This document shows, piece by piece, positions 2,243 through 7,975 of a stretch of DNA of 64,000 nt; the stretch's first letter is position 1; each line of letters opens with the position of its first letter. The notes beneath the pieces are model-generated. The model was not told the origin of the DNA. It was given only the letters and a program-made list of their open reading frames with translations, and did not search any database. The stretch is taken from the NCBI GenBank assembly GCA_003054495.1, contig CP028514.1:1775501-1839500 (forward strand), in the 5' to 3' direction. The position numbers and the translations under genes are program-made. The DNA is from Carboxydocella thermautotrophica (GTDB lineage: Bacteria > Bacillota > GCA-003054495 > Carboxydocellales > Carboxydocellaceae).

Positions 2243-3445
2243 TTGAACAGGGAAAAACAAAAACTGCATCAGGGCTATTTCATCCTGATTTGTTCTCTCT
2301 TGCTAGTTGTTTCCCTGGCTATCAGCCCCAAAGTTGCTTTTCAAGGGGCCTTGCGTGGCACCAGAGCCTGGTTTGAAATCGTTCTTCCGGCTCTCCTGCC
2401 CTTTTTTATCGGTTCAGCCTTACTGGAACGTTATGGTCTCACCCACTGCCTGGGGGTATTGCTGGAGCCGGTAATGCGCCCCCTCTTTAATCTGCCCGGT
2501 GCCGCCGCTTTCGTCCTGGCCGTAGGCTATACTTCCGGTTATCCCATTGGTGCTGTTATCACAGCCAGTGAAATCAAAGCAGGGCGACTGACGCCGGCAG
2601 AAGGCCAGCGCTTGCTGGCCTTTACCAATAACGCCTCGCCCTTGTTCATGCTGGGAGCAGTAGCCGTTGGCATGCTGGGCCAGCCAGCCCTGGGCTGGAC
2701 CCTGGCTGCCGGCCATTATGCGGCCAATCTGACCCTGGGTATCCTGTTAGCCTGGCGCAGCCGCCAGCATTCATCCCGGCCGCCACTTAAGGCCGGAAAT
2801 CACAAAATCTGGGCAGCAGCTTTGCAAGAATTACGCCAAAAACTGCTGGCCAATGAGCGCCCCCTGGGCAGCCATCTGGCCGAAGCTGTAGGAGAAGCAT
2901 GCAATAAACTGCTGGCTATCGGCGGGTTTATCATTGTTTTTGCTACCATCAGCCAGCTGCTGCTTCATTTTGGCCTGCTGGGAGCCCTGGCCCGTCTACT
3001 GGATTGGCCTTTTCAACTCCTGGGCCTGCCCGAGGGAATTGGTTTGGCTCTCGGCACTGGTTTGCTGGAAATCACCCTGGGCTGTCAGCAGGCCAGTATC
3101 AGCGACCTGCCCTTGCAGGCTAAAGTCCTTACCATCGCCGCTATTTTGGCCTGGAGCGGTTTTTCCGTCATTGCCCAGGTGGCCAGCTTTATCAGTTCCA
3201 CTTCATTGCGCTTGCTGCCTTTTATCAAAGCACGACTGGTTCATATCTTACTGGCCATACCTTATACCTATTTTTTTTATCAGCTGGGCTGGAGTATACC
3301 AGCCGCAGCCTGGCCCCTACCTCAGGCTGCTAATGCCTCCTGGCTGGGGCTTTTGGTTTATTCCGGTCAATTATTTCTTTTCACCCTGCTGGTGCTGACT
3401 CTGCTGGCCATTATCAGCAGCTTACTGCACCGGCTAAAATCCTAA
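2243..3445 (+). CDS. ylbJ: Sporulation integral membrane protein YlbJ
   Basis: 400 aa polytopic membrane protein with about ten hydrophobic segments and the nucleoside-gate-like motif GYTSGYPIGA (about 96-105) seen in YlbJ. In Bacillus subtilis ylbJ is a sporulation gene needed for spore cortex formation; the transported molecule is not known. The start is TTG, preceded by AGGCAGGGGATAGG; no ATG in frame fits better. The stop overlaps the convergent coiled-coil gene by four bases. Confidence 0.85.
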   Translation: MNREKQKLHQGYFILICSLLLVVSLAISPKVAFQGALRGTRAWFEIVLPALLPFFIGSALLERYGLTHCLGVLLEPVMRPLFNLPGAAAFVLAVGYTSGYPIGAVITASEIKAGRLTPAEGQRLLAFTNNASPLFMLGAVAVGMLGQPALGWTLAAGHYAANLTLGILLAWRSRQHSSRPPLKAGNHKIWAAALQELRQKLLANERPLGSHLAEAVGEACNKLLAIGGFIIVFATISQLLLHFGLLGALARLLDWPFQLLGLPEGIGLALGTGLLEITLGCQQASISDLPLQAKVLTIAAILAWSGFSVIAQVASFISSTSLRLLPFIKARLVHILLAIPYTYFFYQLGWSIPAAAWPLPQAANASWLGLLVYSGQLFLFTLLVLTLLAIISSLLHRLKS

Positions 3446-3941: not shown

Positions 3942-4430
3942 TTAGCCCTTGAGCTGGGCCAGTTTTTCCTTGATTTTAATTTCGACAACCTCGGGGACAA
4001 ATCCTTTAATGCAACCACCATAATTTGCAATTTCTTTAATTAAACTGGAACTGATAAAGGAATATTCCGCCCGCGCCATCATAAAAAAGGTCTCCACGGA
4101 AGGCTTGAGCTTGCGGTTGGTTACCGCCATTTGTAATTCATTTTCAAAATCGGAAATCGCCCGCAAGCCGCGGATAATTACCCGCGCCTTCTGGGAAACA
4201 ACATAGTCTACTGTCAAACCAGTAAAGCTGTCTACCCTGACATTAGGATAGGGCCGCAAAACTTCCCGTAATAATTCAACTCGTTCTTCCATTGAAAAAA
4301 GAGGTTTCTTAGCAGAATTAACCGAAACAGCGACTATCACCTGATCAAACACATCTGCCGCCCTTTCGATAATATCCAGATGGCCATTGGTGATAGGATC
4401 AAAACTACCCGGGTAAACAGCTATTTTCAC
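3942..4430 (-). CDS. coaD: Phosphopantetheine adenylyltransferase
   Basis: 162 aa, normal length. The motif [16 protein letters not shown] (residues 5-20) contains the TNGH nucleotide-binding signature, and the C-terminal ISSSLIKE matches the ISSTxxR/K motif. The enzyme adds AMP from ATP to 4'-phosphopantetheine to give dephospho-CoA, the penultimate step of coenzyme A synthesis. It overlaps rsmD by ATGA, indicating translational coupling; rsmD-coaD is a widely conserved pair. Confidence 0.95.
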
Positions 4431-4990
4431 TCTGCCTTCTCCTCCTCAATATAGAAATTCAAGGCCGCTTCCCCATATTTTTCCCGCCGTTTCAGCCGGT
4501 AACCTGCTATCTCTTCAATAGCCGGCTCCCGTGACCTGGTCTCTACTATAATCCAGCCCTCCTGCTGAAGCAGCCGGTATTGCGAAAGCAATGGCAACAC
4601 TCGGGACAAATGTCCTTGTTCATAGGGCGGATCGAGAAAGATAAAATCAAATTTTCTCCCTTCCCGTCCCAAACGGGGAATGGCGCGATAGACATCATCC
4701 TTTAATACCTCTGCCCTTTCCTCCAGGCCGGTGCTGGACAAGTTGTCCCTGATGCAGGCCAGGGCTTTCGGGTCCTTTTCCACCAGCACTGCCCGGGTCG
4801 CTCCCCGGCTGAGGGCTTCAATCGCCAGGGCCCCGGTACCGGCAAACAGGTCAAGACAGGTACTATCCCAGATTCGGTTCCCGATAATATTGAACAGAGC
4901 TTCTCTGACCCGGTCCAGAGTCGGCCGGGTGGAAATACCCCTGGGAGCTTTCAGTTTTCGACCTCTGGCCTGTCCAGCTATTACCCGCAA
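4427..4990 (-). CDS. rsmD: 16S rRNA (guanine966-N2)-methyltransferase
   Basis: 187 aa from a TTG start that has GAGGTG seven bases upstream; the encoded [16 protein letters not shown] matches the family's usual first residues, so the longer upstream reading frame is not used. The SAM-binding loop is [18 protein letters not shown] and the catalytic motif LDPPYEQG. It methylates G966 of 16S rRNA. It is followed by coaD with a four-base overlap. Confidence 0.92.
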
Positions 4991-5084
4991 TTTTTTCACC
5001 TCATTTGCATTATAGCATAGAAAAAATTTTTTTCCAGATGTATAAACCTTTTCCCTGCAGGTAATAAATATAAATGAACCAGTC

Positions 5085-5189
5085 AACACTCTCCCTACAA
5101 GCTCTTTCTCCGGTTTCTCCTCTCCCAATGTTACCCGCAAGGGTAACAAATTGGGCCACACCGCAAGGTAGTGGCCTTCTTTTTTTATC
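5085..5189 (+). ncRNA. Candidate small RNA: CU-rich leader with two GCAA-loop hairpins
   Basis: On the plus strand, opposite the flanking genes, a C/U-rich stretch (with CTCTCCCT, TTTCTCC and CTCCTCTCCC) runs into a hairpin at 5124-5155 (13 pairs with an AA bulge, loop GCAA). A second GCAA-loop hairpin at 5154-5176 ends in TTCTTTTTTT. GNRA-type loops occur only in the plus-strand RNA. No promoter could be recognised and no plus-strand gene fits. CU-rich segments resemble the Shine-Dalgarno-pairing seeds of Gram-positive small RNAs, but that role is inferred. Confidence 0.4.
5154..5189 (+). terminator. Intrinsic terminator, plus strand
   Basis: Stem GGCCAC/GTGGCC extended by ACC-GCAA-GGT with one bulged A, followed by a run of seven T. 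It points along the plus strand although neither neighbouring gene does. Its first two G are shared with the preceding hairpin, so the two stems compete slightly. Confidence 0.7.
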
Positions 5190-5853
5190 TAGGATAGAGA
5201 TGCAGTTGTCCTCTGGTATCCAGCAAGGCGAAAAAGATTTGCTGTGGCTGCTGGTACCCCTGTTTTTGCAGCTCTCCAACCAGCCAGTTTTCCGACAGAC
5301 CAATCTGTCCCAGATTATGTTTTTGTACAATCCCATCTTTGATTAAGGGGATAGGTAATCCCTCATAACTCGTAGCTAAACTCAGATCAGCAGGAGTAAC
5401 CGGACGATTCTGGCTTTTGGGGATTACACTTAGCTTTCCGGAAGTCTCCAGTACCGCGAATTCCACTTCCGCCGGTGAGGTAAAACCCTTTTCCCGTAAC
5501 TGAGCCATTAAATCATCCAGGCTATAGCGCAAGCGTTTCATTTCCTCAATTACCGGCTGGCCATTAGCCACAACAATGGAAGGCTGTCCATCCATCAGTT
5601 TACGAAAGACCGGAAATTTTAACGCCAAATAGGAAGTGATAATTTCCAGCAAAACCACTACCAGAATAGGCACCAGGCTGGGCAACAGGGGTTTCTGGTA
5701 ATACTCCATGGGAATAGCCGCCAGTTCTGCCAGCACAATAAAAACCACAATATCAAAAGTGGATAACTGTCCTACTTCTCTTTTTCCCATTAACCTTACC
5801 ATGACCAGAATGAAAATATAAACAAAAATTGCCCGCAACACCACGTTTGCCAT
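5185..5853 (-). CDS. DUF421 (YetF/YrbG-like) membrane protein
   Basis: 222 aa. Three N-terminal membrane segments (roughly 1-75) carry the family signature MVRLMGKREVGQLSTFD. A soluble domain follows with the typical GQPSIVVANGQPV and a second repeat (EVEFAVLETSGKLSVIPK; QIFFALLDTRGQLHLYPR). In spore formers some DUF421 proteins are sporulation membrane proteins, but the biochemical role is not established. The gene is divergent from gpr, with only about 80 bases between them. Confidence 0.85.
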   Translation of the reverse strand: MANVVLRAIFVYIFILVMVRLMGKREVGQLSTFDIVVFIVLAELAAIPMEYYQKPLLPSLVPILVVVLLEIITSYLALKFPVFRKLMDGQPSIVVANGQPVIEEMKRLRYSLDDLMAQLREKGFTSPAEVEFAVLETSGKLSVIPKSQNRPVTPADLSLATSYEGLPIPLIKDGIVQKHNLGQIGLSENWLVGELQKQGYQQPQQIFFALLDTRGQLHLYPR

Positions 5854-5905: not shown

Positions 5906-5935
5906 AAGGCAGAAATTTGGAGAGGAAGATAATTC

Positions 5936-6922
5936 ATGGCGCGACCGGAATTGCTTAAGCATTTTTCCATCAATCTCGATCTGGCTCTCGAAGCCCATGA
6001 AGCGATTCGGGGCCAGGTACAACGGGAAATTCCCGGTGTCGCAATGGAAAAACTGCAAAAACCTCATGCCACCGTAACCATCGTTACAGTCCTGGATGCC
6101 CAGGGAGAGCAATTAATGGGTAAACCGCCAGGTAAATATATTACCATCGAAGCACCAGATATCCGGGAAGGTAACCGGTTAGTACAGGCCGAAATCGCCC
6201 GGGTTTTTGCCGACCAGCTTAAATCCCTGCTATCCCTGGGGCCAGATGCCACCGTTCTTCTGGTCGGACTGGGCAACTGGAAGGCTACCCCGGATGCGCT
6301 GGGGCCCAGAGTAATCAATTCCGTCCTGGTAACCCGCCACCTTTTTCATTATGCCCCCCAGGAACTGGCCGGAGGGATGCGCCCGGTTTGCGCTCTGGCC
6401 CCGGGCGTCCTTGGTATAACCGGCATTGAAACCGCTGAAATCATCCGTGGGGTAGTGGACAGAGTCAAGCCCAATGCTGTTATCTGCATTGATGCCCTGG
6501 CCGCTGGCAGTGCCATGCGCATCGGCACTACTATCCAGCTAGCTGACACCGGTATAAGTCCCGGTTCCGGCCTGGGTCATAAACGACAGGGTTTAAATCA
6601 AGAGACTCTGGGGGTTCCTGTGATTGCCATTGGCATCCCCACCGTTTGTCATGCTGCTGTTATTGCCGGCGAGGCTATCGATAAATTACTGGAGCAGTTC
6701 CAGACCAGCCCAACCCTATATCAAATATACAAGAATCTCAATCCGGCTATGATTCAACAAATTATTAATGAAGTGCTGCACCCTTTCGCCGGCAATCTGG
6801 TTATGACTCCCAAGGATATTGATGATTTAATTTCCGAATGTGCCAGGATAGTCGCAGGTGGTCTGAATTTGGCCCTCCACCCCGGTATTCCCGAACAGGA
6901 AGCCTTCAGCTACCTGCACTAG
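5936..6922 (+). CDS. gpr: Germination protease GPR (spore protease, family A25)
   Basis: 328 aa. The opening (KHFSINLDLALEAHEAI) and the conserved blocks LVGLGNWKATPDALGPRV, ICIDALAAGS, TIQLADTGISPGSGLGHKR and GVPVIAIGIPTVCHA identify GPR. It is made as a zymogen in the forespore and, on germination, cuts alpha/beta SASPs within their EIA/EVA-type sites. The substrates are encoded directly downstream on the opposite strand. GGAGAGGAAG precedes the ATG. A GC-rich inverted repeat follows the stop (6929-6959) but lacks a T-run. Confidence 0.95.
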   Translation: MARPELLKHFSINLDLALEAHEAIRGQVQREIPGVAMEKLQKPHATVTIVTVLDAQGEQLMGKPPGKYITIEAPDIREGNRLVQAEIARVFADQLKSLLSLGPDATVLLVGLGNWKATPDALGPRVINSVLVTRHLFHYAPQELAGGMRPVCALAPGVLGITGIETAEIIRGVVDRVKPNAVICIDALAAGSAMRIGTTIQLADTGISPGSGLGHKRQGLNQETLGVPVIAIGIPTVCHAAVIAGEAIDKLLEQFQTSPTLYQIYKNLNPAMIQQIINEVLHPFAGNLVMTPKDIDDLISECARIVAGGLNLALHPGIPEQEAFSYLH

Positions 6923-6968: not shown

Positions 6969-7202
6969 TTATTGCTGGGGAGTAGTGGTGCCAGCTTGCC
7001 CGGCCAGAGCTTGTTCAGCCAGCTGCACCATTTTCTTGGTCATCCATCCACCGATGCTGCCACACTCCCGTGAGGTCATATTTTCATAGCCAACAGTCTG
7101 GATTTTTTCCGCTAAACCGATTTCATTAGCGATTTCATATTTGAACTGTTCCAAAGCCCTTTTGGCACCGGGAACCGCAGTTTTGTTCCGATTTCTGGCC
7201 AT
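6969..7202 (-). CDS. Alpha/beta-type small acid-soluble spore protein
   Basis: 77 aa. Contains the GPR cleavage region KYEIANEIG and the DNA-binding signature YENMTSRECGSIGGWMTKKMVQ of alpha/beta SASPs, which saturate and protect spore DNA. The Gln/Thr-rich tail (AGTTTPQQ) is extra. It starts 19 bases after the stop of the upstream SASP and is more than 80% identical to it over the core, so the pair arose by tandem duplication and is probably one transcript. Confidence 0.93.
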   Translation of the reverse strand: MARNRNKTAVPGAKRALEQFKYEIANEIGLAEKIQTVGYENMTSRECGSIGGWMTKKMVQLAEQALAGQAGTTTPQQ

Positions 7203-7221: not shown

Positions 7222-7446
7222 TTACTGTTGTACACGACCAGCCAAAGCCTGTTCAGCCAGTTGTACCATTTTCTTGGTCATCCATCCACCGATGCTGCCA
7301 CATTCACGGGAGGTCATGTTTTCATAACCAACAGTCTGAATCTTGCCGGCTAAGCCGATTTCATTGGCCACTTCCATTTTGAACTGCTCCAGGGCCCGTT
7401 TGGCGCCGGGAACAGCCGGTTGATTGGTATTGCGTCCGCCTGGCAT
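7222..7446 (-). CDS. Alpha/beta-type small acid-soluble spore protein
   Basis: 74 aa from an ATG placed seven bases after GGAGGTG (an in-frame GTG three codons earlier sits inside the ribosome site and is rejected). Core motifs are FKMEVANEIG (GPR site) and YENMTSRECGSIGGWMTKKMVQ. Tandem with the next SASP gene. A sigma-G-like promoter is found upstream. Confidence 0.93.
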   Translation of the reverse strand: MPGGRNTNQPAVPGAKRALEQFKMEVANEIGLAGKIQTVGYENMTSRECGSIGGWMTKKMVQLAEQALAGRVQQ

Positions 7447-7476
7447 CTTTATCACCTCCTTTGCTGTTGGTGTTCA

Positions 7477-7506: not shown

Positions 7507-7513
7507 GCAACAG

Positions 7514-7723: not shown

Positions 7724-7903
7724 TTACTGTTTTGGTTGGGCCAGACTCCGTTCCGCCATTTCAATGGCTTTGTGCACCATCATGCCACATTGCCGCGAGG
7801 TAACGCCACCGAAACCTTCCCGCTGGACGATGTCCGCCACCCCTAATTCTCTGGCAATTTCCCACTTCAACTGCTCGGACATGATACTGCGCCGTCTGCC
7901 CAT
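7724..7903 (-). CDS. sspF: SspF-type alpha/beta SASP
   Basis: 59 aa from the ATG eight bases after GGAGG. MGRRRSIMSEQLKWEIARELG and FGGVTSRQCGMMVHKAIEMAE closely follow Bacillus SspF (MGRRRGVMSDEFKYELAK...). It contains the GPR site WEIARELG. SspF-type proteins are minor SASPs of the spore core. It lies in the gpr/SASP cluster. Confidence 0.9.
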   Translation of the reverse strand: MGRRRSIMSEQLKWEIARELGVADIVQREGFGGVTSRQCGMMVHKAIEMAERSLAQPKQ

Positions 7904-7975
7904 GGCCACTACCTCCTTCACCATCGCACCATTTATAGTTTGCGTGATTTGCTTAAAACTAACCAGGCAATTTTT

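Follow-up and report, generated by a model that had tools for sequence, protein, structure and literature searches.

A homologue of the sporulation small RNA CsfG very probably lies beside rsmD in Carboxydocella thermautotrophica, on the strand opposite the Rfam ylbH leader

CsfG is a small RNA of Bacillus subtilis sporulation, reportedly described by Marchais et al. in 2011, and is made by spore formers within the forespore. Rfam holds the same bases as family RF00516, the ylbH leader, but treats them as a cis-regulatory leader encoded by the complementary strand; ylbH is rsmD. The RF00516 motif goes back to Barrick et al. 2004, as cited in PMC3574147, and in that paper a northern blot of B. 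subtilis found the ylbH strand silent and a strong signal from the opposite strand, whose RNA was named CsfG. The label ylbH leader is repeated in a later transcriptome paper (PMC4342826). According to PMC8216469, CsfG is under sigF and sigG control, has C-rich regions like those of RoxS and FsrA, and is without a known target; the C-rich class and the sigF/G control are also documented in PMC4409812. RoxS/RsaE and FsrA, both of Firmicutes, resemble CsfG in their multiple unpaired C-rich stretches, which can pair with Shine-Dalgarno sequences, whereas they differ in their regulators, ResDE and Fur, and in their loci (PMC8216469, PMC4409812).

We have analysed a 64-kb stretch of C. thermautotrophica DNA (hereafter the window), in which positions 5038-5187 of the plus strand are, with a probability that we put at roughly 0.93, a csfG gene consisting of a forespore sigma F/G promoter and an untranslated RNA of about 110 nt with its own terminator and probable Shine-Dalgarno pairing. 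The assignment draws on sequence, namely on the type and strand of the apparent promoter, the core and its predicted accessibility, the terminator, the synteny, and the distribution among spore formers; we infer that the gene is expressed in C. thermautotrophica. Like B. subtilis CsfG, the window copy sits beside rsmD/ylbH and is directed away from it, with a sigF/sigG-type promoter, a conserved C/U-rich core, a terminal hairpin, and a length of about 110 nt. Unlike CsfG of B. subtilis, it has a weaker -10 element and two GCAA-loop hairpins 3' of the core, and is without the 5' stem predicted for Bacillus copies. The original prediction had been of an undescribed small RNA on the plus strand with its own terminator; the RNA and its terminator stand, but RF00516, our core model R1 and the B. 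subtilis northern blot of PMC3574147 identify it as a new homologue of a known family, and the claim of novelty fails. The features of the locus are shown in Table 1.

Table 1. Features of the csfG locus and its neighbours, in window coordinates
Feature	Position	Strand	Basis or remark
ylbJ	2243-3445	+	upstream of csfG
rsmD (ylbH)	4427-4999	-	PF03602, E 9e-60; start 4999 or 4990; divergent neighbour of csfG
-35-like element ATGTATAA, sigF/sigG-type promoter	5038-5045	+	weight matrix
-10-like element GTAATAAATA, spacer 15	5061-5070	+	weight matrix
Rfam RF00516 'ylbH leader' match	5072-5184	-	33 bits, cut-off 50, E 8.3e-5; same bases, complementary strand
Predicted csfG transcript, ~110 nt	5077-5187	+	start placed from promoter, end from terminator
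C-rich region 1, CUCUCCC	5089-5095	+	sequence
Conserved CsfG core AGCUCUUUCUCCGGUUUCUCCUCUCCC	5100-5126	+	alignment A1 and model R1
Accessible C/U run UUUCUCCUCUCCC	5114-5126	+	likely pairing seed
Hairpin 1, GCAA loop	5129-5148	+	MFE fold
Intrinsic terminator	5154-5186	+	GCAA-loop hairpin, then T-run
Terminator hairpin GGCCACACC-GCAA-GGUAGUGGCC	5154-5176	+	
T-run TTCTTTTTTT	5177-5186	+	
DUF421/YetF gene	5185-5853	-	flanks csfG, between csfG and gpr
gpr, germination protease	5936-6922	+	PF03418, E 1e-95; downstream, csfG strand

Alignment of 29 loci (A1) shows 16 invariant columns in the core, every locus having been taken with the motif and 11 of the 29 being named loci selected by an exact part of it. 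Three rows were dropped, one as a duplicate of the window copy (L019) and two that had no motif at one mismatch, of which L013 has a variant core and L025 is an apparent chance match. The core model R1, built on 29 sequences and using sequence only, scores E 9.3e-11 in the window's own genome, although the window copy was itself among the sequences of the model; RF00516, which does not depend on R1, recognizes the same bases with an E of 8e-5. As a cis leader, the window copy does not reach the gathering cut-off of RF00516 (33 against 50 bits), and among the 61 genomes of the window's relatives the family matches in 36, in only one of them above the cut-off. Other Rfam matches on the plus strand (BjrC68, suhB/mmgR, and IsrM) were rejected, being far under their cut-offs and reflecting no more than a terminator-like hairpin.

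The minimum free energy fold of 5085-5189 on the plus strand consists of two GCAA-loop hairpins at -30.0 kcal/mol, where shuffles average -18.2 (z -4.77; none of 200 shuffles equals it). The site is as it had been described, with twin GCAA hairpins, a C/U run, minus-strand flanking genes, and two G (5154-5155) common to an outer CCCAAU/AUUGGG stem and the terminator stem. Its T-run, said to be on the plus strand only, is so in degree but not absolutely, since a weak T-rich stretch, barely enough for a lenient criterion of 5 T in 8, also follows the terminator hairpin when the minus strand is read. A generic terminator scan of the window did not list the terminator at 5154-5186, probably on account of a bulge in the stem. 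Once near-identical loci had been dropped, 89 of 133 loci yielded a terminator call on the csfG strand and 59 yielded one on the opposite strand, compared to 6 to 11 after shuffling.

The same RNA, letter for letter, occurs in a second genome of the species (G061), and a relative of the same order (G002) keeps the promoter, 5' end, core, and terminator, albeit with a single terminator hairpin and no GCAA twin; a second relative of that order (G001) likewise has one hairpin without the twin, and hairpin 1 is conserved in neither. The suggestion that the two stems sharing two G may alternate is energetically possible but not conserved, and because these same-order relatives have a single terminator hairpin without a GCAA twin, the twin hairpins and any alternation of stems are details at the level of the species and not a feature of the family. 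Relatives had been proposed as a check on both the loops and the CU-rich segment, and of these two the C/U-rich core is conserved among them and the twin GCAA loops are not.

The sigF/G-like promoter at 5038-5070 starts 39 nt upstream of the predicted RNA start and scores 11.4 with a weight matrix trained on the csfG strand of relatives, the window copy being excluded; four of 1000 dinucleotide shuffles reach this score, the opposite strand scores 1.4, and the window holds 11 further sites that equal or exceed it. Of the 124 loci left after near-identical ones were again dropped, the matrix fits 122 on the csfG strand and five on the opposite one, a result that is partly by construction since the matrix was trained on that strand of the relatives. 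A cleaner control is an untrained scan with the sigF/sigG consensus, which without mismatch occurs in 75 of 137 regions upstream of the core when the csfG strand is read and in none when the opposite strand is read (shuffles mean 1.15), and with up to one mismatch in 128 and 19 of 137, respectively (shuffles mean 22.6). The window promoter is found by the weight matrix but is not among these 128, its -10 element being off consensus. At the equivalent position, G002 has GGTATA followed by GGAAACAATA, with a -10 that fits the sigF consensus.

A scan of named sequences for YTCCGGTTTCTCCTCTCCC yielded at least 117 stretches, and among the matches listed all titles read as Bacillota except for two metagenome-assembled genomes, labelled Acetobacteraceae (L092) and Desulfovibrio (L093), which are probably misbinned or mislabelled Bacillota contigs. 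Within the phylum, R1 matches 87 of 149 genomes at E≤0.01 and 84 at E≤1e-4, while gpr is present in 129. csfG occurs in 83 of 129 gpr-positive versus one of 20 gpr-negative genomes (Fisher p 3e-7, uncorrected for shared ancestry), such that 83 of the 84 csfG genomes carry gpr; the sole exception (G145) is a genome in about 240 contigs. No strong csfG match was obtained in 46 of the 129 gpr-positive genomes. The genome of C. thermautotrophica itself has gpr beside csfG and ORFs that by reading are SASP-like, consistent with an endospore former.

How CsfG would act is suggested by its C-rich regions. In the forespore, a sigma F/G promoter at 5038-5070 would drive an untranslated RNA of about 110 nt ending at its own terminator, and single-stranded CUCUCCC and UUUCUCCUCUCCC would probably base-pair in trans with the Shine-Dalgarno regions of forespore mRNAs, lowering their translation or stability as RoxS and FsrA do. 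We infer such pairing of the C-rich runs with mRNAs and regard it as rather probable. The UUUCUCCUCUCCC run is complementary to strong Shine-Dalgarno sequences, and over 84 predicted RNAs its mean probability of being unpaired is 0.38-0.45 at the first two U and 0.68-0.92 in the remainder; the position of C-rich region 1 is occupied by UCCCC(C) in most relatives. The proposal of a plus-strand RNA with C/U-rich elements complementary to ribosome sites was right, and UUUCUCCUCUCCC is mostly unpaired in these predictions.

A search of the genome for near-perfect complements of the seed, with the pattern GGGAGAGGAGAAA at one mismatch, gave 13 sites besides csfG, compared to nine for the reversed control, and no convincing target among them. 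Five of the 13 are plausibly placed for ribosome binding (L151, L152, L156, L161, and L162); by reading, L156 is metK-like and L161 and L162 resemble ECF-transporter genes. The ribosome site of gpr, GGAGAGGA (5910-5936, plus strand), could form eight contiguous pairs with the CsfG core and seed and ranks fourth of 65 predicted genes in the window. As a conserved trans target gpr was rejected; 75 of the 83 genomes with both csfG and gpr were used, and the 66 usable loci of the 75 fetched, set against 344 neighbouring genes, gave p values of 0.08 before and 0.44 after allowing for Shine-Dalgarno strength.

The position of csfG with respect to gpr is steady. The two genes lie no more than 20 kb apart on one contig in 37 of the 84 csfG genomes, and in 36 of these gpr is downstream on the same strand, at up to 1.5 kb in 21 genomes and up to 600 nt in 12. 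One family (f23) has csfG in all eight of its genomes, and in six only 49-60 nt, with a single hairpin, separate the end of the core from the gpr start codon (csfG-gpr loci of the family are L206, L207, L211, L242-L245, L247, and L248); there the RNA would therefore be a gpr leader sharing its promoter. The hairpin is followed by a T-rich stretch in some of these genomes, which is weak in others. What is new here is the shared orientation, with csfG upstream of gpr in 36 of the 37 genomes that have both within 20 kb, and the place of csfG in the gpr leader in six genomes of this family. In the full texts searched, csfG, gpr, and sporulation were not found together. The steadiness of this linkage, including a family with an apparent fusion, offers a concrete lead to the role of CsfG in the forespore, although it may reflect no more than inherited gene order.

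A possible explanation is that csfG and gpr form one old forespore unit (sigF/G promoter, C-rich RNA, hairpin or terminator, and gpr) in which the f23 RNA would still be the gpr leader, as an attenuator or a mask of the Shine-Dalgarno sequence, while elsewhere, including in the window, insertion of genes or relocation of the cassette would have left the RNA to act alone; we think this unlikely. That CsfG is mainly cis-acting, now or formerly, as a leader or attenuator of gpr from which the stand-alone RNA was derived, is quite unlikely in our estimation. The downstream, same-strand position of gpr in 36 of 37 genomes and the short core-to-gpr distance in six of the eight f23 genomes speak for it, but in the window an opposite-strand DUF421 gene intervenes, in G001, a member of the same order, csfG and gpr are oppositely oriented, and in 47 of the 84 csfG genomes the contig carries no gpr within 20 kb of csfG, contig ends hiding some. 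Neither of the tests for pairing of csfG to gpr lent support, in that the complementarity of the gpr ribosome site is no better than that of its neighbours, and masking of the Shine-Dalgarno sequence by a fused csfG leader was rejected for the six f23 leaders, which do no better than shuffled upstream sequence that is itself C-rich by composition (fraction of shuffles at least as masked 0.14 to 0.92).

The reading of the locus as csfG also has to be weighed against the Rfam label itself, by which the element would belong to the minus strand and serve rsmD/ylbH as a genuine, riboswitch-like 5' leader. Rfam's family and type label favour this, as does the conserved position, with rsmD divergent beside csfG in 24 of 27 relatives' loci and in 103 of 117 named loci among the matches listed (counts not de-duplicated, with L014 and L134, for example, being one contig), and a hairpin with a weak T-rich stretch can be read on the minus strand too. 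Against it, the sigF/G-like promoter sits on the csfG strand and not on the other, and the promoter-like TATAAT with TG on the minus strand (5036-5009) is downstream of the element, just before rsmD. The promoter-core-terminator cassette as a whole is moreover turned round with respect to rsmD both in L014/L134 (G001, a genome of the window's order) and in L032, which is hard to reconcile with either an rsmD leader or the tail of a ylbJ transcript, and in the northern blot of B. subtilis by others no RNA was seen from the ylbH strand (PMC3574147). A leader of rsmD is thus very unlikely, and RF00516, labelled as the ylbH leader, is very probably filed on the wrong strand. For this locus, the analysis settles a strand ambiguity that has persisted in Rfam, and it adds CsfG to the lineage of C. 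thermautotrophica.

The other suggestion made for this site, that it terminates a long antisense transcript which would cross coaD and rsmD from ylbJ, is highly improbable and finds no support, as ylbJ does lie upstream on the plus strand (a relation kept in 78 of 117 named loci among the matches listed) but csfG has its own conserved sigF/G-like promoter directly upstream, its conserved core far exceeds a terminator, and the cassette survives in two lineages in which its orientation to rsmD is reversed.

We note that the three SASP-like ORFs (by reading) near gpr and csfG lie on the minus strand at 6969-7202, 7222-7455, and 7724-7924. One of the 11 other window sites scoring at least as high as the csfG promoter, at 7508 on the minus strand, is immediately upstream of the ORF at 7222-7455, as expected for a sigG promoter.
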